This document shows positions 50,594-63,793 of a stretch of 64,000 bases of DNA, one piece after another. The stretch lies in assembly GCF_963675165.1 (NCBI RefSeq), contig NC_087385.1:4092501-4156500 (forward strand), read 5' to 3'. This stretch comes from Halichondria panicea. Lineage: Eukaryota; Porifera; Demospongiae; Suberitida; Halichondriidae. Both the position numbers and the translations under genes were made by a program. Below the pieces are notes generated by a model that worked only from the letters and a program-made list of their open reading frames with translations, had not been told where the DNA came from and made no database searches. Each line of letters begins with the position of its first letter. Position 1 is the first letter of the stretch.

Positions 50594-52033
50594 CTGCTAC
50601 AGCTGCTCAAGGATCAATCAAGTGCAAGTAAGAGTTTCTATAGGCTTCTAGTCATGTTTACTTGGATTTTAATTCGTGGATTTGCAAAATAATGCTTCGT
50701 TCTCGAGTTATGCCTAGTTTTGCTTACTGGCAAGCCTTTTCAGAAGAGTGCGTAGAAAAACTTGTCCATCGAGTGTTGCTACTCTACTTAGTAGTTAGCT
50801 CTGCACTAGAACGCTAGCTATTGGTAGCTGCAAGAGTGAGAAGACAGCTGCAAAGCTCTGCTGATGCAGCCATTACTTTTAGACTTGAACTTTGGCATCG
50901 ATCGTTTTTAACAACAATCATGGTCGATCATTATACCTACTCTTTGCTGGATTCTGCCTGTATGCAGCAATTAATTAATGCTAGATTAAGTATACGATAA
51001 AAGCTATCAGTAACTTTATGTTATGTAGCTTTGGCATCTCCACTGAGGCATCAGCACCTGCGGTGCTTTCATTCATATACACAGTACATACATGCAAGTT
51101 AAATGAATTCACTTAGCTCAAATGAATACGAAAACAAACAACGTACATGTATACATTATACATGTACATGTTACATCTGTTTAGGGACTATTATTGCTAT
51201 AGTTAAAGCTGACCAAAACAGGCTAGCTATGGCTATGTCAACACAAATCAAAATGCACCTCATCACTCTGCTATTCATGTGACAATTCATGTGACAATGA
51301 AAGCACCACGGGTGCTGATGCCTCAGTAGATGCACCAAAGCTATACGACATGAAGCTACTATTTGGTGCAAAAAGTGGGAAACAATCGACCACAATCGTT
51401 GCTAAAAAGGATACCAAAAGCTCAAAGTCCATAAAATTAATGGCTGCTGCATGAAACAGCTGAGTACGTGCAGCTTTGCAGTAGCTCTCTTCTCACTCTT
51501 GCAGCTAGTGTTCTAGTGCAGAGCTAACTACTAAGTAGAGTAGCAACACTCTATGGATAAGTATTGCTACGCACTGTTCTGAAAAGGCTACAATGGCATT
51601 CCAATAAGAAAATCTATTACTAAATATACTATTATAAAGTTTTGCAAACCCACAACTTGCAATCCAAGAAAATGTGACTAGAAGCCTTTACTTGCACGCA
51701 CTTTATTTATCATTGAGCAGCTGCAGCAGTCTACACAGACAGACAGACAGACACACAAACACGCTACCGTATACCGAGCTGCGCATGCGCACCCGAAGCA
51801 TAATAGTACAATTGGCCAATTTGATAGGCTCACTAAAACCTCACATATGCACAAACTAGGCAGTTAGAGAATGCCCAGTAGTAGTAGTACTTACACAATG
51901 CACTTCCACTCACCTCTATAATGTCCCTGAGTGAAGTGAGGTAATCCCTCTCTGTAGTGAGGATCTCGTTCACCACATAGGCACACTCCCGAGGCCAGTT
52001 AGTGAGCAGCACTGATCTCACATACGACTCTAT

Positions 52034-52092
<59 letters not shown>

Positions 52093-52390
52093 GTGTGTGT
52101 GTGCGTGTGTGCGTGTGATGTGTGCATGTGCATTAGAGAAAGTGCAATAAATAACGCTTTTCTGTCTATTGTTTCGGATGAAGTGCTATAACTTGCAACA
52201 ATGACATCAAATCACTCAATACTGTTAATACTAGTAATACTGTTAAAGCAGTATTTACAGTGTTTATTACACAGCTTCGCATTAACAGGTCAGGAAGTTA
52301 CAACTTACGAGAGTGCTCATAGAGGGTGGAATCACTCAAGGGGCGAGGTTTTGTTGGAGAGTCCACTGCATCTCTGGCAGGCTGGGACAT
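39735..52390 (-). CDS. DH-PH RhoGEF (PLEKHG-like) with acidic repeats and C-terminal membrane segment
   Basis: Twenty-one exons, read down the minus strand: 52390-52309, 52029-51914, 50061-49958, 49815-49746, 49564-49364, 49187-49023, 48931-48899, 47917-47797, 46852-46825, 46790-46745, 46414-46322, 45848-45803, 45668-45564, 45315-44978, 44455-44320, 44020-43862, 43110-42925, 42809-42721, 42646-42560, 42400-42140, 41693-39735; every phase agrees; 1474 residues. The start is MSQPARDAVD. The DH domain (about 32-246) shows VVNEILTTERDYLTSL, NVEDLYSLHK and the core helix SYLIKPVQRIMRYHLLL. PH (about 247-353): LIRE, VILFEKLLLILKK, YNYKGHIL, then WVSEI. The order and DH-PH linker (ALRAQDIQSCLTGW) are most like PLEKHG1-3. 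DH-PH proteins load GTP onto Rho-family GTPases. The long tail is Ser/Asp/Glu-rich, carries about five repeats, and ends in a hydrophobic helix (LLVLSVIAVSSIVVCAGIYY), which vertebrate PLEKHG proteins lack as far as I know. Confidence 0.88.
40320..41300 (-). repeat. Coding tandem repeat, about 63-72 residues per unit
   Basis: Inside the last RhoGEF exon. Units contain TDSDI, IVVVTPELE, EAPPIND, DHAPGDSDDKTETI and IEPQS. The word gcatgatcttctgatgga recurs about every 189 bases from 40375 to 40945, with a longer step (about 214) to the outermost unit. The inner three units are almost identical at DNA level, so they are recent or homogenised. The repeats are strongly acidic. Confidence 0.85.
41886..42012 (+). 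repeat. GCATGCGC-family repeat, internally deleted, in RhoGEF intron
   Basis: Has both ends of the family (attatgcctcggtgcgcatg at left; ggcatcagcacctgcggtgt followed by tttcatt at right) but only about 127 bases in total, so the middle is lost. It is flanked by ATT on both sides. Confidence 0.7.
43236..43822 (-). repeat. GCATGCGC-family repeat, full length, in RhoGEF intron
   Basis: Reverse orientation: from agcaccaggggtgctgatgc to gcatgcgcaccgaggcataa. About 590 bases, with the same inner order as 50446-51075 (tagctgcaagagtgag, aagttttgctacg, actcgagaacgaagc, ggctagaagcctatag). Confidence 0.75.
48040..48810 (-). repeat. GCATGCGC-family repeat with inner insertion, RhoGEF intron
   Basis: Reverse orientation, from gaaagcaccgcaggtgctga to ccgaggcataatc. 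About 350 bases at roughly 48095-48450 are not in other copies and hold two similar passages of their own (ctcaaattatagcctc, ctcaaattgtagcctc), so another repeat has inserted here. Confidence 0.65.
50446..51075 (+). repeat. GCATGCGC-family repeat, reference full-length copy
   Basis: Starts attatgcctcggtgcgcatg, with a hairpin cctcg...cgagg, and ends ggcatcagcacctgcggtgc-tttcatt, with a second hairpin (agcacc...ggtgct). About 630 bases including a long GT microsatellite. No ORF. Lies in RhoGEF intron 2, facing the inverse copy at 51293-51805. Confidence 0.75.
50514..50590 (+). repeat. (GT)n microsatellite, about 38 units
   Basis: Uninterrupted gt run inside the GCATGCGC repeat at the position where other copies show only short tgtgtttgtgtg or acacacag runs. 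Translated frames across it on both strands are artefacts. Confidence 0.95.
51293..51805 (-). repeat. GCATGCGC-family repeat, reverse copy
   Basis: From aatgaaagcaccacgggtgc to gcgcatgcgcacccgaagca. It forms an inverted pair with 50446-51075, about 220 bases apart, within the same intron. Confidence 0.7.
52034..52118 (+). repeat. (GT)n microsatellite next to a splice acceptor
   Basis: On the minus (sense) strand this is a CA run that ends four bases before the acceptor tag of RhoGEF exon 2 (exon end at 52029), taking the place of a normal polypyrimidine tract. Confidence 0.9.
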
Positions 52391-53029: not shown

Positions 53030-56000
53030 ATGGCTAGATCTAGCATCAGTCTTGATTCAGAAATTGGCTGGCAAAATGCTTCGTTGCTGAAAGAGCTGCA
53101 AAAGTACCACATCAATGAAAACGATGATGAGCCTATCCGAGGAGTGAGAGTGGCCTACTACAACAGCAGTGATCCCTCAGAGTCAGACCATTCTGATGTG
53201 CACAATGAGCACTGGAAAAAAGCTCTCATTGATAAGCCTAGGTCTCTGGAGGTAGGTACGGTAACTGGGTTTGACTTCGGAGAAGGAGTTGTGTCTGTGT
53301 TTTGGGACTGCGGAAACAAGATAACCTATACGTACGATCGCTGGAAGAATTTGACAGTGTACAGCCTTGGGCCAGCAGGTAATTTGGGAATTGTAAACTT
53401 GTTTACATGCATGTATTGTATAGTTTCCAGGCCGCACAAGGCCTGGGATCGAGGCTAATTAAAGATGGGTTTGTATGGTGCAAGGTTAGCTATATCGCAT
53501 GCAGTCAGCAACCGGTTCACTCATCAGCTAGCTATCAGTAATTGCATGTGTCCTCTCATTATTTTGCTGTTGCACTCATTTATAGGTTATCTTGGTCAGA
53601 TGGTATTCTGTGACAAGTGTCTCGATCCATCAAAGGGCCTTGCCTTCAGGCTGGCTAGGCAAAACACAAGTGTGGGAGATCTTTACGACCTCTGTGTTCA
53701 GTGCTACAATGAAGGAGACGATGAGCATATAATGAGTCATTTCCATTGCAACATACCAAGTGGGAACATAGACCAAGATGATGACGATGTGTAAGTATTT
53801 ACACTTATTTCTTGTATTGACAAAATCTAGTGTATATTATTTTGCAGCAAAAAAGTATCTTTACCCACACGAGAAGAGTCAAGTAAGTATTTACTTGTGG
53901 GAATATTCAAGCACGCTACTGTTGAGGCTCATAGTGACTGCAACTCAGCAAGTAGTACAGGTGATTATACTCAGAGTAATATTACCGTCAATTGTGCACA
54001 TGCATTGTATTACTGACAAGAGAAAATGTTAGACCATTTGACGTTAGTGATTCAGTACATTAATTCACTTATAATAATTATTATGTATATACTTGTGGTA
54101 GTTTCATTATCACAATTTGTGTGGCACCTGGAATTTGGCACACACTCAACTGTTGAGACCAAACTTCATTAAACGGTAACAGATCAAAGAAATAACCAAT
54201 AGGTTCATTAATCATTCAAATGGGATTACACAGAGTAGCTTTTGTGTGTGAAATATTGTTTGAATCTTACAGGTGAAGTCCTTAGCATTGTTCATGAGAA
54301 AGGGAATCACAATCTGAGAAAGGCTAAATACTACGTAAGTTAGCAACTAACTGTTGTTCAATACTTTTATTTCTCTATAGCTATGCTTACAAGAACTTGT
54401 ACGTTAACGAGCCCTAGCTGAGCTAGTACAACAGAGCTTTTACAGCTAGATTTAAGAAGTGTTTACACTAGCCTCAAGACCAGGCCATTCATTTGGAAAG
54501 AACGCCTGGTCAAGTTCCTATGTAGAACTCATGTAATTGGTCGCACACCCACGATCGGTCATTATTATGAATCGATCACATAAACTAGGAGTGCATTCCT
54601 GCATGAATCTATCATACCAAGAGTTCAAGAACAGTAGGTATTATTGGTCACGTGCGGTCATAACCTACGCAGTTAGGAAATTCATAGATTACAAACGTGT
54701 AAAACGTCATTACCATTGTGGTTTGTCTTCGACATCACAGAAACAGAGCACTTATGATATAAAATAAGCAGTGGAACCTCCATTTATACGACCATTTCCG
54801 AAGAGCAACCACACGCTATAAAACAGCCAAGAGCTCAGATCCGGAGAAACTACAATGACTTCAATGTAAAGCAACCTCTCAGGAACGGCCTCCATATAAT
54901 TATAACGAAGCTTTCTAGTCCCCAATCAGCTTTAGCAAGGAAAATCAGGAAAATAACCTCCCAGAACGAACAGGCCACACCCAGAATTAGCAGAAAGTTT
55001 TTGCTGAGATAGCATTATTTAATTTCCACAATCCGTAGCTGTGTAGCTTGTCCCTATAGCTTGTATATGAGCTAGAAAAGCAGTTAGCAAAGCTCCAAGC
55101 AGCAGGAATTGACTCAGAGCATACATGTAGTTGGCAATCGAACCTCTCAACAAAGACCACCTTTTTAAGAAGCCTGGAGCCTTATGTACGTACGTTCTGT
55201 ATTTAAAAGAAGCAATCAACCACAATTCTAGCTTTCTACTTTAGGGACCCTGAAAATACACACTTCAAATAAAAGCCGCGTGAAGTTAGCTAGCCATGCA
55301 GCCAACGTGCAAGTTCTTAGCTTTTAAAAAGCCAACGGACTACTATACCCATGGCTGCCCATACAATTAGATCTTAGCCGACAAGTTTGCTTGAGTTCCA
55401 TCGCTAAGCGAAAAGGCACCCGATAATTGAGTAGTATAATCAGTGTGTGTACTTATGTAAACCATACGAAATCATTCTTGTTAAATAAACTATTCAGGAA
55501 TGCTGTACCAGAGTTCCAGATCTTAGCCGACATCGCTGTATAAAAAAATGTTGCTGTTTTATAAACCACCCCACCACCTTTGGTTGCCACATGATATGTT
55601 TTAGATCAGTCTTTTACCTACACAATTGGTATCAGTAGAAATGTTTCAACAGTCACACATTAATAAGAGCAAATGTGTGTTTTTATTTTTTACTCTCTAG
55701 ACTAAAGGCACTGTAGCATTTTCCCAACACTACTTTGCTAGTGACAATGTTGATCTCTTATCAGGACTCGTGTGCTGAGGTCAAACTCCAGGACGGCTCG
55801 TCGCTGGTCTACTGGGAGGCTGGGAGTGGCGGGAAAGTGGAGCTTAAAGCCGTCAAACCTGGAGAAGCCCCATTTCCGGTTGCTATAGACCACTTTATTA
55901 AATTTGGTAAGTGATTGCAATATGTGTTGCATTTTAATCATGCCAATATTTACTCTCAGTACAAATGAATGCACATTTACAGTTACGTATAGCTCTTAAG

Positions 56001-59000
56001 AGTACGAGGCTAATAGTCCTATTCGTTTAAGAGCCTGGAATTTTGATTGCTATTTGAACGCCCACTAACTACTTCCTGTATAGCTTCCGCAGTAAAATTG
56101 TGCTGAGCTGGCACACCCTTTAACATTGAAGTCAGAGGAGGGAGGACACGATTAACCTTAGCTCTAATTAGCTAATTATCGCGACCTTTTAATTACATTC
56201 TTTGAACGATTCATCTTTTCTTTCTTTATAACCTCTACATATTGGACACAAGAGCTAGAGCCTTTTCTCCTACTGGAGGTACCCCTATGGCCAAGTTGTC
56301 AGGACCTGAAGGTAATAGGACCTATAAGAAGCACCTCAAGTACTCCTATCTCTAAGATCCCTGTGAGAAGCATCCCAGGCACTCTGATCTTGTCTCTGTG
56401 AGAAGCACTCTTGATCCTGGAGACAGGATCCCTATGAGGAGCACCCCAGGCACTCCTGTCTCCAAGATCCCTGTGAGAAGCACCCCAGACACTCCTGTCT
56501 CTGTGATAAAGCTGCAACATGGAATTGTTTAGTTCAGAGTGTCTCCAACATGAAGAACATCAATGACACTAGCAGTCTCAGCTTCTAGCACCCCTTTATT
56601 TGTATGGTTTGCTCTGTCTGTGCCTGCAAGAATTGCTTGTCACTCATACTACAGTACTGTTCTGTGTGTCCCAATATATAGAGGTTATAAAGAAAGAAAA
56701 GATGAATCGTTCAAAGAATGTAATTAAAAGGTCGCGATAATTAGCTAATTAGAGCTAAGGTTAATCATGTCCTCCCTCCTCTGCATTGTAAAATCAATGT
56801 GTTTTTGCAGCCTCTGCATTCTGCAATGCATGCGGAAGTTTGTGAAATATTGAAGTAAGAGCTACACAATGGTTTTTGTCCCAGAGAGTGTTTGTCAACT
56901 GTCAGTGAGCTAGCTGGTCTTGAAGATACCTACTATACACACAGTAAGTGCAGTAATAGTAGATCTACATGTAAGAGGTAGTCTAATGCTCAAGGATGAT
57001 GGAACATCTTATGTACATAGTAGGCATCTGCAGAATTGTGTAGAGGAGATGTTCCACCATCTTTGAGCATTAGTTTACCTCTTAGATCTACTACTACTGC
57101 ACTATACTGCACTTACTGTGTATATAGTAGGTATCTTCAAGACCAGCTAGCTCACTGATAGTTGACAAACACTCTCTGGGACAAAAACCATTGTGTAGCT
57201 CTTACTTCAATATTTCACAAACTTCCTTTATTTAGAATAATAGCACATGCATTGCAGAATGCAGAGGCTGCAAAAACGCATTGATTTTACAATGACTTCA
57301 ATGTAAAAGGGCATGCCAGCTCAGCACAATTTTACTGCGGAAGCTATACAGGAAGTAGTTGTGGGCGTTTAAAAAGCAATCAAAATTCCAGGCTCTTAAA
57401 CGAATAGGACTATTAATATTTTGTCTCTTCGCTATAGGGGATATCATTCTCAAAGAGATGTACACATACAAGACGAAGCTTACAAAAATGAACGAGACAG
57501 TATTGAGCTATTGCTTCATGCGAAATAAGCCTGATGGCACTTGCTATTCGCTCACAATCAGTGGAACAGAATTGACACAAATTACCGATACCGAAATCTG
57601 GCGACGTTGTAAAGACCTGAAAATCGTAATCTTGTTGATGAATGAGCTAGACTCATTGCCTGCCAAGGAATTGCTGAAGTATGCATCTACCATAGAGCTT
57701 GTTTGCATCCAAAATAACAAATTCATAGCCGTTCCACCGATTATCTACAAGCTGACCAATATCAAGCACCTCAATCTCCACGGGAACCAAATCTCGACAT
57801 TTCCTTCTGAACTGCAATCTTTAAAACACCTTGAACGCCTTAAATTTGGCCATAACAACCTGTACTCTCTTCCAGACATATTTTGTGGCTTCAAATGCCT
57901 CATTGAAATAACATTCAACAACAATTTTCTAACTAGACTTCCTCCATCATTTGCCGAGCTCACAAGACTAGAGTGTATTGATCTCACAAACAATTCATTT
58001 ACCTGCATCCCGGCACCTTTACTCAAGCTACCGAATCTAAAATCTATCTATATGAGGTTCAACAGAATCCACAGGCTGTCTCCGCTTGAAGACATAGAAG
58101 GAAAGAACACTCGTGCTCTATTGCTGAAATTGGTTACACTTTCACTTCGAGGAAATCCGATCTATATGCGACTCAAATTTTTACCAGGTAAAACTAAAGC
58201 TTTAGAGAATGTTAGAGCTAACTTCTTAAAACTTGGCCAGATTCCTGGTCAAACTACAAAAGCTCTTCGTGTGCTTGTACTAGGCTCGTGTGGTGCTGGT
58301 AAAACTAGCATCGTAGATGCTTTAAGCTTTGAGAAATATGTGACTCCAACTTCTGAAATGCACCACGATCACACTGTCGGCATCGATCGGTTTTCAATTC
58401 CAGTGAAAATGAAAACTATATATACTGAGGACTGCATTGTTGAACTCCGCCTATGGGACTTTGCTGGAGAGAGAAGCTACATCATGATGAATGACCTCTT
58501 CATTACAAATGGTACACTAATTTGGATAGCCATAAATTTCCAAAGATATGAGTGCACACCCAAAAGTTTTAAGCTGTATGTAGCTAATTGGTTACAGCAA
58601 ATTATGATCAAGAATGTTAGGCCTATTGTATGGATCATCGGTACACACACAGACAAATGTGAACCACAAGACGTTCAAAACAAAGCTGAACATATTCGGA
58701 GCATGATTGAAGATGAATGCAAACTGTTTCGTAAAGAACTAAAGAATGAGCTCGAAACGTTGAGAACAATAGAAGCAACAAGTAAATATGGAAACCGATC
58801 ACCGAAATGTGTTCAAAAAAACATTAAACATCTCAATGATGTCAATGAAAACAGCGTACCTTGTTTTGTTTTGCATCATTTGAAAGTACTTCATCTGACA
58901 AATACGCACACATTATCGGGATTTGCTAATTTGAAAGATAATCTTGCTTGCTTTCTTGACAATGAATCTTTTGCTTATCTCACGTTACCACTCACTGTTA

Positions 59001-60888
59001 ATCAGCAAAAAGCAGCCGACGTGCTTCGATATGAAACTGAAAAGCTTCTGTCAGATGGACAAGCCCCTATTTTAGAAAAATCCCGAGTGCTGGAATTTAT
59101 CAGGAATGAACTAGGACAACAATCAAGCGATAAAGAAGCGGCATCGTTTCTTAAATACCTCCATCAATCTGGCCACCTGTTAGATTGCGAGTCAAACGTT
59201 GTCGTGTACGTCATAATGGATGTTGATTGGTTGATTGATTTGTTGAAACAAGTGTTTCACCATGATTTTTCAGCGATGGTAGCTGAGAAAAAGAGAAGGT
59301 CTGCTTTTAATCAATTAACTGATGAAAGCATTCAGCGGGCTATTATGATTCAGAAGCAATCAGGAGTAGTTGAGCAGCCATTGCTCAAAGCACTGTGGCC
59401 ATTAAATCCTAACGTTTTTAAAGATCTGGTAAACTTACTTCAAACGTATGGACTGGCTTATGAAACAACTGATCCATCTGGTTATTTATTTCCATGGTTA
59501 GTGACGGAAAGCAGTCCCAATCTAGTACCACCCACTCTTGCTGCCTTTGAAAGTCGAATCATGGTATCGTATGAGTTTTCACCTTGCCTTCCAATATGCT
59601 TCCTACAGCAGCTAGCAGTTAGGTGTAAGGAGGGTGTTTCTATTAAGAATGTTTGTACTAATTCATTCATTGTATACGAATCAAAACAGCTATCTCCAAT
59701 GGAAGACGAAATAGCTACGCACACCGTGCTGGTTTCAATTAAACACGAGAAACAGTGTGGGCAAATTAAACTGTATGCTACCACAGATAGAAGTAAGGAT
59801 AGGTCATTAATGAAGGAGTTGTGGTTCATGGTAATGCAAATAGTTAAGAAAATGGAAACACTTTTGTGTAATTGGACGTTTTACAGTAAATTTCAAAGAA
59901 AGGTGTGCTGTCCTCTTTGTACCGTGTCTTTGATTGATCTGCAAATTCAGAGACAAGTTGGATGTCTACAGCAAGGACGTGAATGCTATAAATGTGCCAG
60001 TAAAATTCCATCAGGCTACATAGTTCCACCAGCCGAATACCAAATAAACAGATTTGTTGATGGTCAGGATCCCAGTTCACCATCAACACCTCTCTTGCAG
60101 CGATCAACATCTATTCCATTGGATGCTGCTGTTACAGCTGATGAAAGACGTACGCATCGGTCATATTCCGTTCCTTGTCCCTATGGCCTCAAGCTTTTAT
60201 CGATTCCAGATCCGGAGCAACATGAGTCACCACTTCATCATGCCTCACATTCTTGTCCTGCTAGGAGATGTCCAGTCCTGTCACAATACCACAAGCAAGC
60301 CGCCTTCAATACACACCCTACACAGTTATCTGATAGTATAGCACCAATCCAGGAGGAAGGAGATGACCTATTTCGTATGGAAGCTGATCGTGATGCAGAA
60401 CCAATTCAAGCTACTCCTGACTTTCCACAACTGTCATCAGGTAAGATTTTAATGCACATGCACACATACACATGTACGTAAATACTAATTTGAATACAGA
60501 TACGTCGCTCGCCTATGCTGCTGTCAAGAAAATGGTACTGCTGCACAGCAATCATGTTCACAAAGCTCATGTTTACACCAGACGTATAAATCGGAAAGAT
60601 CAACTTTTATTAGCGTATAATTCCACTGATTGTGATTGGAAAGGCCTACTGGCAAATCTAGGCATATCTCACATTCCTAATATTGAGAAGGTAATTCTGT
60701 CTCGATCTGATGACGGTAGTGGAGAGCCCCCATTAAGAAATGAGCTCATCTATCAAGTGCTGTGGGAGTGGATGACCAAACAAGGATCGAGAGCCACTGT
60801 TTCCGGTCTGGCAACAGCCGTAATTAACTCAAAAAAAGAAAGTTTCTGGGATGATGCATTTGCACTATTATTCAAAAGCAATCGTTAG
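53030..60888 (+). CDS. MIB/HERC2-ZZ-MIB-LRR-Roc-COR-Death protein (ROCO family)
   Basis: Seven exons: 53030-53378, 53586-53790, 53848-53882, 54273-54334, 55765-55906, 57438-60440, 60500-60888; phases agree at all six junctions; 1394 residues. Residues about 37-117: MIB/HERC2-like (RGVRVAYYN, VGTVTGFDFGEGVVSVFWDC). About 118-180: ZZ zinc finger (VFCDKC, YDLCVQCYNEGDDEHIMSH). About 217-250: second MIB-like half (VKLQDGSS, GGKVELKAVKPGE). About 300-510: leucine-rich repeats. Roc GTPase from about 540: P-loop GSCGAGKTS (about 548), LWDFAGE (about 604), GTHTDKC (about 665). COR about 740-980 (IMDVDWLIDLLKQVFHH). A CPLC...CYKC cysteine cluster follows. The last exon is a Death domain (DWKGLLANLGIS ... 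VLWEWMTKQGSRATVSGLATAV). There is no kinase domain and no RING finger. In Mind bomb proteins MIB-ZZ-MIB binds substrates; ROCO GTPases signal through Roc-COR dimers. A role in stress, immune or cell-death signalling is inferred. Confidence 0.85.
53421..53457. repeat. TAGCCTCG-family remnant in MIB-ROCO intron 1
   Basis: ttccaggccgcacaaggcct followed by gggatcgaggcta, a 37-base palindrome that has lost its first bases. It lies 43 bases after exon 1. Confidence 0.6.
54469..54520. repeat. TAGCCTCG-family remnant in MIB-ROCO intron 4
   Basis: tagcctcaagaccaggcca at left and cgcctggtcaagttcc at right; the right terminus is degraded. Confidence 0.45.
56013..57413. mobile_element. 1.4-kb long-TIR element in MIB-ROCO intron 5
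   Basis: Inverted termini of about 125 bases (atagtcctattcgtttaaga ... ccgcagtaaaattgtgctga and its inverse), with TA on both sides (56011-56012, 57414-57415). Inside are two more inverted repeats: 56135-56236 against 56688-56781, and about 56783-57017 against 57043-57296. The right end is 24 bases before the acceptor of exon 6. No transposase. The TA duplication suggests a Tc1/mariner-type mechanism. Confidence 0.7.
56299..56520. repeat. Minisatellite within the intron 5 element
   Basis: Degenerate tandem units of roughly 25-40 bases built on aagatccctgtgagaagca and ccccaggcactcctgtctc. The 73-residue minus-strand frame here is only a reading of the repeat. Confidence 0.75.
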
Positions 60889-61315: not shown

Positions 61316-63793
61316 CTAGAAAACAACTTCAAAAAGTACACAGAATAGCAGCCACTGAGCTTGTTTAACGTGCTCTTGATCAGGGGAGCTCTCTGCAATA
61401 ACTGTGTTAGCACTAGGAGGGTGTGGGAAGCGAAATCTACACGACTTGTGTCGCTTACAGTAGCTAGAATGTCTGTGTTGCTGTACTGCCAGAACTTGTT
61501 TCAGTTTACTACACTCGTCTCCTGGGATTGCACAAGTAACGTACTGATCAATAAATGCACATATTATGTCAGTGTTACTGGCGACACCATACAGGGGAGC
61601 ATCTTTAACCCAAAGCACACAATGAGCATGTGGTGACCCCCTAGATTGAAACTCAATTCTAACAACTATTTCACCCGAGGGGCTTAGCTTTACTTTTGAT
61701 AACATCTTGAAAGAATGTCGTCAATCTATAATGGAAATGTCTAGCTGCTGTTACAGGATTGCACCTCAACCATTTGCTTTTGTCCTCGAACGACATTGCT
61801 TCAATTTGTGCATCTGTAAAGTGGTGACCATACTGCCTACCGATAATCTGAATAATGTCTGGCCATTTCATGTACCCAGCTGTCTTATCATTGCTAGTAA
61901 ATCATAAAATGTCCGCTGGTAATACGGGGGTGAACCTCTAACATTTCTGTATGCTTTGTCGGTACGTATGTGTAGACTTAGGAATGCTGAGTCTCGCACC
62001 TGTGAGGCTGTAAACGATCTATAGAGCTGGTTTCTGTCTCCATGCAAAATTGTTTACACTCAACAATGTACTGGGATACAAACAAGTAGTCTAAATCTCC
62101 CGTCAATGTCTAACAACCGTGCATTGAATGTACGTTAGTTTTCTAGGCCTTTGCTTGCTAAAACCACCAGTACCAAAGCAAAACTTGTCAGGGTTATACA
62201 TTAACTCAAACTGTGGGTCAGACATAATAAACAGTGGTTTCTGGCCTTCAGCTGGTGCTACACTCACTATCTGTTCAGGGTTCTCAAGTGATAGAATGCT
62301 AGCATGCGTACGGTACCACCGGTAATTTCTAGTGCATGTTGATCGCCTTCTGCTATTGTTAAATCATCAATCTCTATGTCTCCATTACAGTCGTTTGTAC
62401 TGGAATCAGTGGCACAGGTACGACTAACAGTGGTTGGAGGTGTGGGAGTGCTAACAGATAGTGTAGGTACGGTTAGCTCGTCCAGGGCCACAAAAATGTT
62501 TTTTATGAGTAGACCAAGTTTAATTTCATGTTCACCAAATTCATGAAAAGTATCAACACGTGTACCATCTGGATATGAATGAAACACTAAGTTTAAGATT
62601 AAATAGCTGGCAATCAGCTACTAATGTAATGGGATCACCCTAAGCACCTTCCCTTAACCTTGTTAAATACTTTTGCCAACGTAAGTCGTGCTGTACCACA
62701 GGGTTTGCAACTGACTCGATGTATGCATCCTGCTGATCATTCAACTGGGGTACAAATTAAACCTGCTGTGGTCAGCACCATGTTCATCCAAATAACGTAC
62801 ACACATTTGCTTTAGGGTATACTGCCATTCAAGATTTCAGCTGATATGCAAAGGAATTAAACATACCATCCCTAGGAACATCATGTACTGTGACAGTTAG
62901 ACCATGTTGTTGCACCAATTCTTCTAACACTTTAGCACATACTGACACAGGATCATTACTGTTAGTACCAAAATGGATGTTAGTACATTCATTGCCATCG
63001 ACTACCATAGGCTGGGGGTCACTCGTGTGATCTACTTCACTGTCACGGTATATAGTTGCACAGGCAAGACTAGAGTTGGTCAATGTTGGGGTGGTAACAG
63101 GCCTAGGTATTGTAGGTGCATCTAAACCGACAAAATGATACTGCATAATAAGCCCTATGTTGGCTTCATGTTCACCGCAAGGATTTACAGTGACAACATT
63201 TGTACCACTTTAATTGAGAGTGAACGTGTTAATTTTCGAACTAAATAGATTGGCAATTGTCGTCAATGCAATGTGATCACCCCAAGCACCGTCACTCAAT
63301 CTGCGCAGATATATTTATCCCAGTGCAAGAGTCGCTGCTCTTCTGGGTCTGCAAGCAAGGCAATGTGTGCGTCTTCCTCGTCTAAGGGTTCGTTGTCAGA
63401 ATTGTAACCATCATTGCTGTCTACTGACTGATGTACAAAATGGCTATATCAGTCACCGTTGTCGGTAAAATAATCTACAGACATTTCTCTTAGGGTACTG
63501 GCGTTGACGTCATGCCCCAGATGTTGAAGCTGATATGAAATTGAGCTGAATATGCAGTTGCCATCACCTGGCACATCGTGTATCACTAAGCCGTGTTCAC
63601 CTACAAATTGACGTAATAGCTGAGAATGCACTGATATGGGATATCCGCTGCTAGCAATGTCAGCGCTAGTGGTAGGAACGTCTAAAGCAATTCTACCAAG
63701 TTTGGTGGGGTCAGGCTCATTGGTGTGACTATCAATATTACCATTGCCATCAAGTTTGGTGGGCTCAGGCTCATTGGTGTGACTATCATGCAT
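61316..63793 (-). pseudogene. Decayed, truncated Helitron (Rep part with tandem OTU modules)
   Basis: Read right to left. 63793-63449 is an OTU-type cysteine protease start with intact catalytic DGNC (VIHDVPGDGNCIFSSISYQL); its tail (AWGDHI) lies at about 63240-63300 in another frame. 63146-62829 is a second OTU-like module with the Cys lost (DGMFNSF) and a tail reading GDPI instead of GDHI near 62640. 62587-62267 repeats the linker. 62280-62125 carries the Rep N-terminal block (FELMYNPDKFCFGTGGF). 61871-61671 has MKWPDIIQIIGRQYG and LRCNPVTAARHF, and 61705-61316 has the HUH motif block FQSRGSPHAHCVLWVKD. Several frameshifts and stops separate the pieces, and about ten residues are deleted before MKWPD. 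The Rep tyrosines and the SF1 helicase are missing. Helitrons move by rolling-circle replication; this copy cannot. Confidence 0.82.

Follow-up and report, generated by a model that had tools for sequence, protein, structure and literature searches.

The question raised by this locus is whether a single gene of the sponge Halichondria panicea joins the substrate-binding module of Mind bomb to a ROCO GTPase with a Death domain, and by what route the two could have been joined. The gene lies on the forward strand at positions 53030 to 60888 of a 64,000-nucleotide stretch of contig NC_087385.1, which is called the window here and supplies the coordinates used below unless another contig is named. 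Its predicted product carries, in this order, a MIB, a ZZ and a second MIB domain (together the MIB-ZZ-MIB or MZM module of Mind bomb), leucine-rich repeats (LRR), a Roc and a COR domain, a cluster of four cysteines (Cys4) and a Death domain. With a probability of about 0.72, we read it as a single functional gene in which the MZM exons of a Mind bomb gene were shuffled onto an exon of the ROCO-Death type, and whose protein would work as a ligase-less, GTP-gated adaptor.

The two halves meet at the junction of exons 5 and 6 (55906/57438), which an earlier note on this sequence had placed within one gene. This placement was borne out by a paralogue on the minus strand of contig C12 (353324-358759), which has five MZM exons followed by a long LRR-Roc-COR exon in identical order and with identical phases. 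The junction intron of the paralogue is only 170 bp long, as compared to 1531 bp for intron 5 of the window gene (phase 1, 55907..57437), and the two genes are collinear over MZM, LRR, Roc and COR. The same succession of exon 5 and the start of exon 6 is retained in a third, decayed copy, and the junction is thus present at two loci of the genome besides the window gene. When the window gene was compared with the paralogue by the NG86 method, dN/dS was 0.239 for exons 1-5, i.e., the MZM (bootstrap 0.16-0.41, 286 codons), and 0.279 from the LRR to the Cys cluster (bootstrap 0.22-0.35, 860 codons). By part, the ratio was 0.26 for the first MIB domain, 0.12 for ZZ, 0.28 for the second MIB domain, 0.19 for LRR, 0.36 for Roc, 0.29 for COR and 0.55 for the Cys cluster. 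Values so far below 1 in the MZM and in the region from LRR to Cys cluster indicate that both halves are under purifying selection and kept as protein. The predicted exon 5/6 junction is supported from genomic DNA by the exons, phases and short intron of the paralogue.

The seven-exon model proposed before was reproduced with GT-AG borders throughout, a single reading frame and a product of 1394 residues, and it stood except for the end of exon 3. The end at 53882 was rejected, because the paralogue keeps additional coding sequence and a donor at the position corresponding to 53960 (TACAG/GTGATT, phase 1). The extra 78 nt (26 codons) are open and in phase, and the paralogue conserves them save for substitutions and an indel of one whole codon; the GT sites of the paralogue where the donor at 53882 falls are out of phase. 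With exon 3 extended to 53960, the product therefore comprises 1420 residues and has a complete second MIB/HERC2 domain. Exon 1 (53030..53378; 80% identical in the paralogue) encodes the N-terminus and the first MIB/HERC2 domain (53135-53368, residues about 36-113), which was placed by phmmer and the paralogue, and exon 2 (53586..53790; 94% identical) encodes a degenerate ZZ-type finger. The corrected exon 3 (53848..53960) contains a linker and the start of the second MIB domain (GIFKHATV...). Exon 4 (54273..54334), which splices in frame and has its counterpart in the paralogue, encodes the middle of this domain, and exon 5 (55765..55906) encodes its end together with the end motif ..DHFIKFG, as placed by the paralogue and the alignment to Mind bomb. 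Exon 6 (57438..60440) is 3003 nt long, has symmetric phases 1-1 and encodes LRR, Roc, COR, the Cys4 cluster and a low-complexity linker, and exon 7 (60500..60888) encodes the Death domain (60625-60822) and the stop.

The earlier proposal of a Mind bomb substrate-binding module on a ROCO-Death protein was upheld by three kinds of sequence comparison, in the form of a complete MZM. By phmmer, residues 73-171 matched human MIB1 (4xi6) with an E-value of 6.6e-6, which covers MIB and ZZ, and a two-sequence profile matched the same entry with 1.4e-5. The profile of window protein and paralogue was aligned by hhalign with that of the two Mind bomb genes of this genome with a probability of 95 and an E-value of 2.7e-8 over 172 columns, a comparison of two sequences per side without a shuffled control of its own; the match begins where the first MIB domain ends, covers ZZ and reaches into the second MIB domain. 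Smith-Waterman scores to Mind bomb were 102 and 132, and the maxima among 500 shuffles each were 59 and 57. With the residues added to exon 3, the second MIB domain gains its GIF..V start, and therefore the MZM at the N-terminus is complete. Both the MIB-ZZ-MIB order and sequence homology to Mind bomb are found in the window protein, and these comparisons indicate that its MZM is homologous to that of Mind bomb. The end motif of exon 5, ..DHFIKFG, corresponds to ..EHLAVLG and DHLPLLG in the Mind bomb genes of this genome. The ZZ finger retains the first and last C-x2-C and two His (C125, C128, C153, C156, H164 and H168). In ZZ fingers, such residues and a middle C-x2-C make up two zinc sites. 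The middle pair present in Mind bomb is gone in the window gene as well as in the paralogue, so that two complete zinc sites are lacking; in the paralogue the second His is replaced by Cys.

The introns point to the way in which this module may have been acquired. The intron phases of the MZM are 1-2-1-0-1 in the window gene, in the paralogue and in the Mind bomb gene on contig C3. For intron 1, the window gene and the Mind bomb genes on contigs C3 and C2 share one alignment column, and intron 2 is two columns (two codons) off the Mind bomb position. Intron 3 lies 20 residues past the G of the GIF motif, ungapped, in the window gene and the C3 gene, and a hand count from the DNA gave the same 20-residue distance in the C2 gene. 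Intron 5, the fusion joint, shares column and phase with the C3 intron that follows EHLAVLG and ends the MZM. These matches in phase and position suggest that the halves were joined by exon shuffling. The donor would have been a Mind bomb gene, whose 5' exons, encoding the peptide-binding MIB-ZZ-MIB part, would have been joined, via the phase-1 intron that ends the MZM, to an LRR-Roc-COR exon of the ROCO-Death type, a type that occurs at several further sites in this genome. Such a case of exon shuffling would be traceable, since a single genome suffices to name the type of donor gene, the intron used and its phase.

The ROCO half is more readily recognized. The LRR (57680..58168, residues about 372-534, limits set by eye) match Pfam LRR_4 with an E-value of 1.5e-14 and LRR_8 with 5.5e-10, and the Roc GTPase domain (58268..58654, residues 568-696) matches Pfam Roc with 7.6e-12, i.e., 46.0 bits against a cut-off of 27; LRR_4 likewise passes. 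The Roc domain contains the P-loop GSCGAGKT (573-580), DFAG (631-634) and THTD (693-696), and G573, G576, G578, K579, T580, D631-G634, T693, H694 and D696 are invariant in 14 aligned sequences. Among solved ROCO domains the Roc of LRRK2 is the nearest (4.7e-8), and the Rab-type GTPase YPT6 scores better (1.9e-8). LRRK2 is also matched by the LRR-Roc profile, at best with 2e-32, but unlike LRRK2 the window protein has no kinase match by Pfam in the 1394-residue model, and the ARM, ANK and WD40 parts of LRRK2 are likewise absent. The putative COR-A region is located at 59123..59500 (residues 853-978), and a single-sequence PDB search with the COR part matched no ROCO protein. It is followed by the cluster CPLC..CYKC (59909..59995; C1115, C1118, C1140 and C1143), of which all four cysteines are invariant in the 14 aligned sequences and also in a set of 15; it is possibly a zinc ribbon.

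The Death domain predicted for exon 7 is supported by profile comparison; its Pfam match (E 0.03, 14.9/22.6 bits) is under the cut-off. Against five Death domains of this genome, hhalign gave a probability of 69 and an E-value of 4.4e-5, and the best probability in 40 column shuffles was 0.9. P0009, a relative of the ROCO half, carries Roc-COR together with this Death domain in a single reading frame, and its Pfam Death match reaches 18.0 bits. The end of exon 6 is barely alignable to the paralogue (22% identity over 111 codons), whose frame hits a stop there. Past the Cys cluster, the paralogue has a C-terminus that differs from that of the window gene and is similar to the end of the metagenome protein P0003.

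Several results weigh against the reading of a shuffled Mind bomb-ROCO-Death gene. The domain content claimed in the earlier note holds by Pfam for LRR and Roc, and for the MZM by the sensitive methods; COR-A, Death, ZZ and MIB_HERC2 miss the Pfam cut-off. The COR-A match has an E-value of 8.6e-6 and yet only 26.1/35.3 bits, under the curated cut-off, which the relative P0009 reaches with 35.3 bits. Pfam profiles for MIB and ZZ, to which the note had looked for the N-terminal half, both failed to rise above the cut-off: MIB_HERC2 gave no match in the window protein and an E-value of 0.013 with the corresponding half of the paralogue, and ZZ, with the N-terminal half alone, gave 0.52 in the 1394-residue model and 0.55 in the corrected one. 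Both MIB domains are too divergent for the Pfam model, which, like that for ZZ, is passed by both Mind bomb genes of this genome. As to the introns, intron 3 is six columns off in the gapped automatic alignment, and for intron 4 the agreement with Mind bomb is limited to phase. The canonical Mind bomb gene on C2 has no intron at the end of the MZM and reads on. The 10-kb locus of the paralogue (C12:350001-360000) yielded no Death domain, which suggests that the Death output is not fixed within this subfamily. An intact MZM-bearing orthologue was not seen in other species, the 5' exons of the metagenome relatives being out of reach.

The domain composition of the protein suggests how it might work. 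In MIB1, the N-box of Jagged1 (JAG1) and Delta is bound by the MZM, and the Mib repeat (REP) domain provides the second ligand contact (PMC11887331). LRR-Roc-COR proteins bind GTP, and the nucleotide state affects their complexes (PMC3995007, PMC6337361); in human MASL1/MFHAS1, GTP binding controls complex formation (PMC3995007). By analogy, the MZM head and the LRR would recognise partners, Roc-COR would switch between nucleotide- and oligomer-states, and Death-fold partners would be recruited by the Death domain at the C-terminus, as domains of this kind pair with one another. The work cycle may thus consist of recognition by the head, a switch set by nucleotide and an output through Death. 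Pfam matched neither RING nor ankyrin repeats in the 1394-residue model, and therefore a ligase role of the Mind bomb type is not expected; the protein is probably a ligase-less, GTP-gated adaptor with a Death-domain output. Binding of Notch ligands by the MZM is doubtful because the module is divergent, two ZZ cysteines are lost, and RING and ankyrin repeats are lacking; the earlier idea that Notch-ligand-like or ubiquitin-pathway partners are bound found no support. We consider it unlikely that the GTPase and the assembly of Death domains are gated, through the fused MZM, by the N-box-like tail of some membrane protein, be it a Notch ligand or one of its relatives. Were this true, there would be a direct link from Notch ligand to death fold in an animal, and the protein would be a fused counterpart of the mammalian two-protein pair of MIB1 and DAPK1.

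The known ROCO proteins fall into three groups by partner domains, namely LRR-Roc-COR, kinase-bearing and DAPK proteins (PMC6337361), and in the part of that text available an N-terminal Mind bomb module lies outside all three. The window protein resembles group 1 (MFHAS1/MASL1) in having LRR directly before Roc and the putative COR and no kinase match (grouping as in PMC6337361), but adds the MZM, the Cys4 cluster and the Death domain. Its predicted Roc-COR and C-terminal Death domain have counterparts in DAPK1 of group 3 (PMC6337361), whereas DAPK1 has its own kinase and ankyrin repeats and no LRR. To MIB1 and Mind bomb it is similar in the MIB-ZZ-MIB order, the DH..LG-like end motif, the phases 1-2-1-0-1 of the C3 gene and sequence homology; it differs from MIB1 in having no ankyrin or RING match, a degenerate ZZ, divergent MIB domains and a fusion to LRR-Roc-COR. 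ROCO genes with CARD or Death domains in the placozoan Trichoplax document Death-fold partners of ROCO in early animals (PMC4104024), but the Mib module and HERC2 have 0 occurrences in the available text of that paper. In mammals, MIB1 (DIP-1) is a separate protein, which binds and ubiquitinates DAPK1, and the contact is reported as RING to ankyrin rather than MZM to Roc (PMC4917528, PMC12408332). The parallel between this pair and the window fusion, in which both kinds of module, separate in mammals as MIB1 and the ROCO-Death protein DAPK1, stand in one chain, is suggestive only and is no evidence of the same contact.

Of the alternatives, that of a Mind bomb decoy or competitor survives best, and we consider it unlikely. 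The RING-less MZM would here bind N-box-like tails of the Delta/Jagged type and block or redirect their ubiquitination under control of the GTPase. This is consistent with the binding of the N-box of JAG1 and Delta by the MZM of MIB1 (PMC11887331), with the retention of the entire MZM under constraint, and with the lack of a RING or ankyrin match. On the other hand, the ZZ finger has lost the middle C-x2-C, the MIB domains are strongly divergent, and no REP domain, in MIB1 the second ligand contact (PMC11887331), was found by Pfam in the 1394-residue model.

Somewhat less probable again is an immune-type receptor, by which the gene would be one of many ROCO and ROCO-Death genes, with the MZM having replaced other sensors for recognition of microbial or stress-derived partners. 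The numbers in the genome are compatible with such a family. Scoring of all 70 COR-A candidates yielded 60 matches; for 11 of these, a Death match follows downstream on the same strand, no more than 8 kb away. At least 148 Death matches are present (150 of 503 candidates scored). The window gene does not count among those 11, since the Death matches listed do not include its Death exon. The Death and ROCO exon families are large, and many members lie in frames of about 800 residues on C1, C5, C6, C10, C12 and C22. Work on immunity and apoptosis describes large TRADD-N families with Death-superfamily units in the sponge Amphimedon (PMC8195603). In brown algae, the LRR exons of ROCO genes are shuffled, and these genes have been proposed as immune receptors there (PMC11378527). 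However, dN/dS of the MZM and LRR is well below 1, without a sign of diversification in the single pair compared, and only two intact MZM-ROCO genes were found.

It is very unlikely that two neighbouring genes were read as one or that the locus is a dead chimera. The junction intron is long and mostly filled by nested inverted repeats (56011..57415), as found by a repeat search; of the nine pairs, four consist of arms that are 55-122 nt long and 96-98% complementary. They are probably a fold-back element inserted later. A possible ATG is located near the start of exon 6, where the gene call P0001 begins, and one decayed copy of the gene exists near C12:3664.7-3666.7 kb, in which exon 5 and then the start of exon 6 are kept in a broken form. 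Against two genes stand the 170-bp intron and same phases of the paralogue, and the end of exon 5 and the start of exon 6, which both fall mid-codon; the purifying selection on both halves argues against either version. The idea that the resemblance to MIB and ZZ arose by convergence, with a different small beta-rich region making up the N-terminal half, has practically nothing left to it, as the missing Pfam MIB_HERC2 match of the window protein is outweighed by the collinear profile match to Mind bomb (E 2.7e-8), the match to human MIB1, and the intron phases and positions in common with Mind bomb.

With the shuffled Mind bomb-ROCO gene as the preferred reading, its relatives can be considered. 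A protein search of the genome with the N-terminal half gave three loci only, i.e., the window gene, the paralogue and the decayed copy. None of the 60 COR-A matches lies within 20 kb of the nine Pfam MIB matches, by a MIB model that also misses the window gene. Among 47 proteins found, 13 (P0001-P0013) are closely related to the ROCO half, with 41-99% identity. All 13 are unannotated gene calls whose starts coincide with that of exon 6 or lie close to it. With the N-terminal half as query, a single protein, P0048, came up; over its first 124 residues it equals the product of the paralogue, essentially exon 1. A profile search with 7998 candidates scored added P0049 and P0050. No annotated full-length fusion appeared in the protein searches, in which candidates limited by length or words were scored, so that this is weak evidence of absence. 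GTDB genomes and contigs and IMG/VR contigs gave pattern matches, but no relative by tblastn. A Mind bomb-ROCO fusion is unmentioned among the titles and abstract openings listed from the open-licence PMC literature on ROCO proteins, a weak negative; within these titles, abstract openings and protein searches, the earlier impression that no ROCO protein with a Mind bomb module is known was sustained. Two MIB_HERC2 matches on contig C13 (L019 and L020) were rejected as ROCO fusions, as neither gave a tblastn match to the product. At L019 (C13:5262001-5272000), MIB_HERC2-like C-terminal ends are seen on genes that look by eye of the B-box/filamin type, which is another unusual combination with MIB.

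The flanks of the gene contain weak matches of other kinds. A search of the window with Rfam gave no match. Upstream, the inner part of a minus-strand frame (51836-52132) matches the start of a RhoGEF domain below the cut-off (E 0.005), with a long GT repeat adjoining. Downstream, minus-strand frames are located at 61316-63209, in which 61319-61720 matches Helitron_like_N below the cut-off (E 1.5e-4), and this suggests a Helitron remnant beside the gene.

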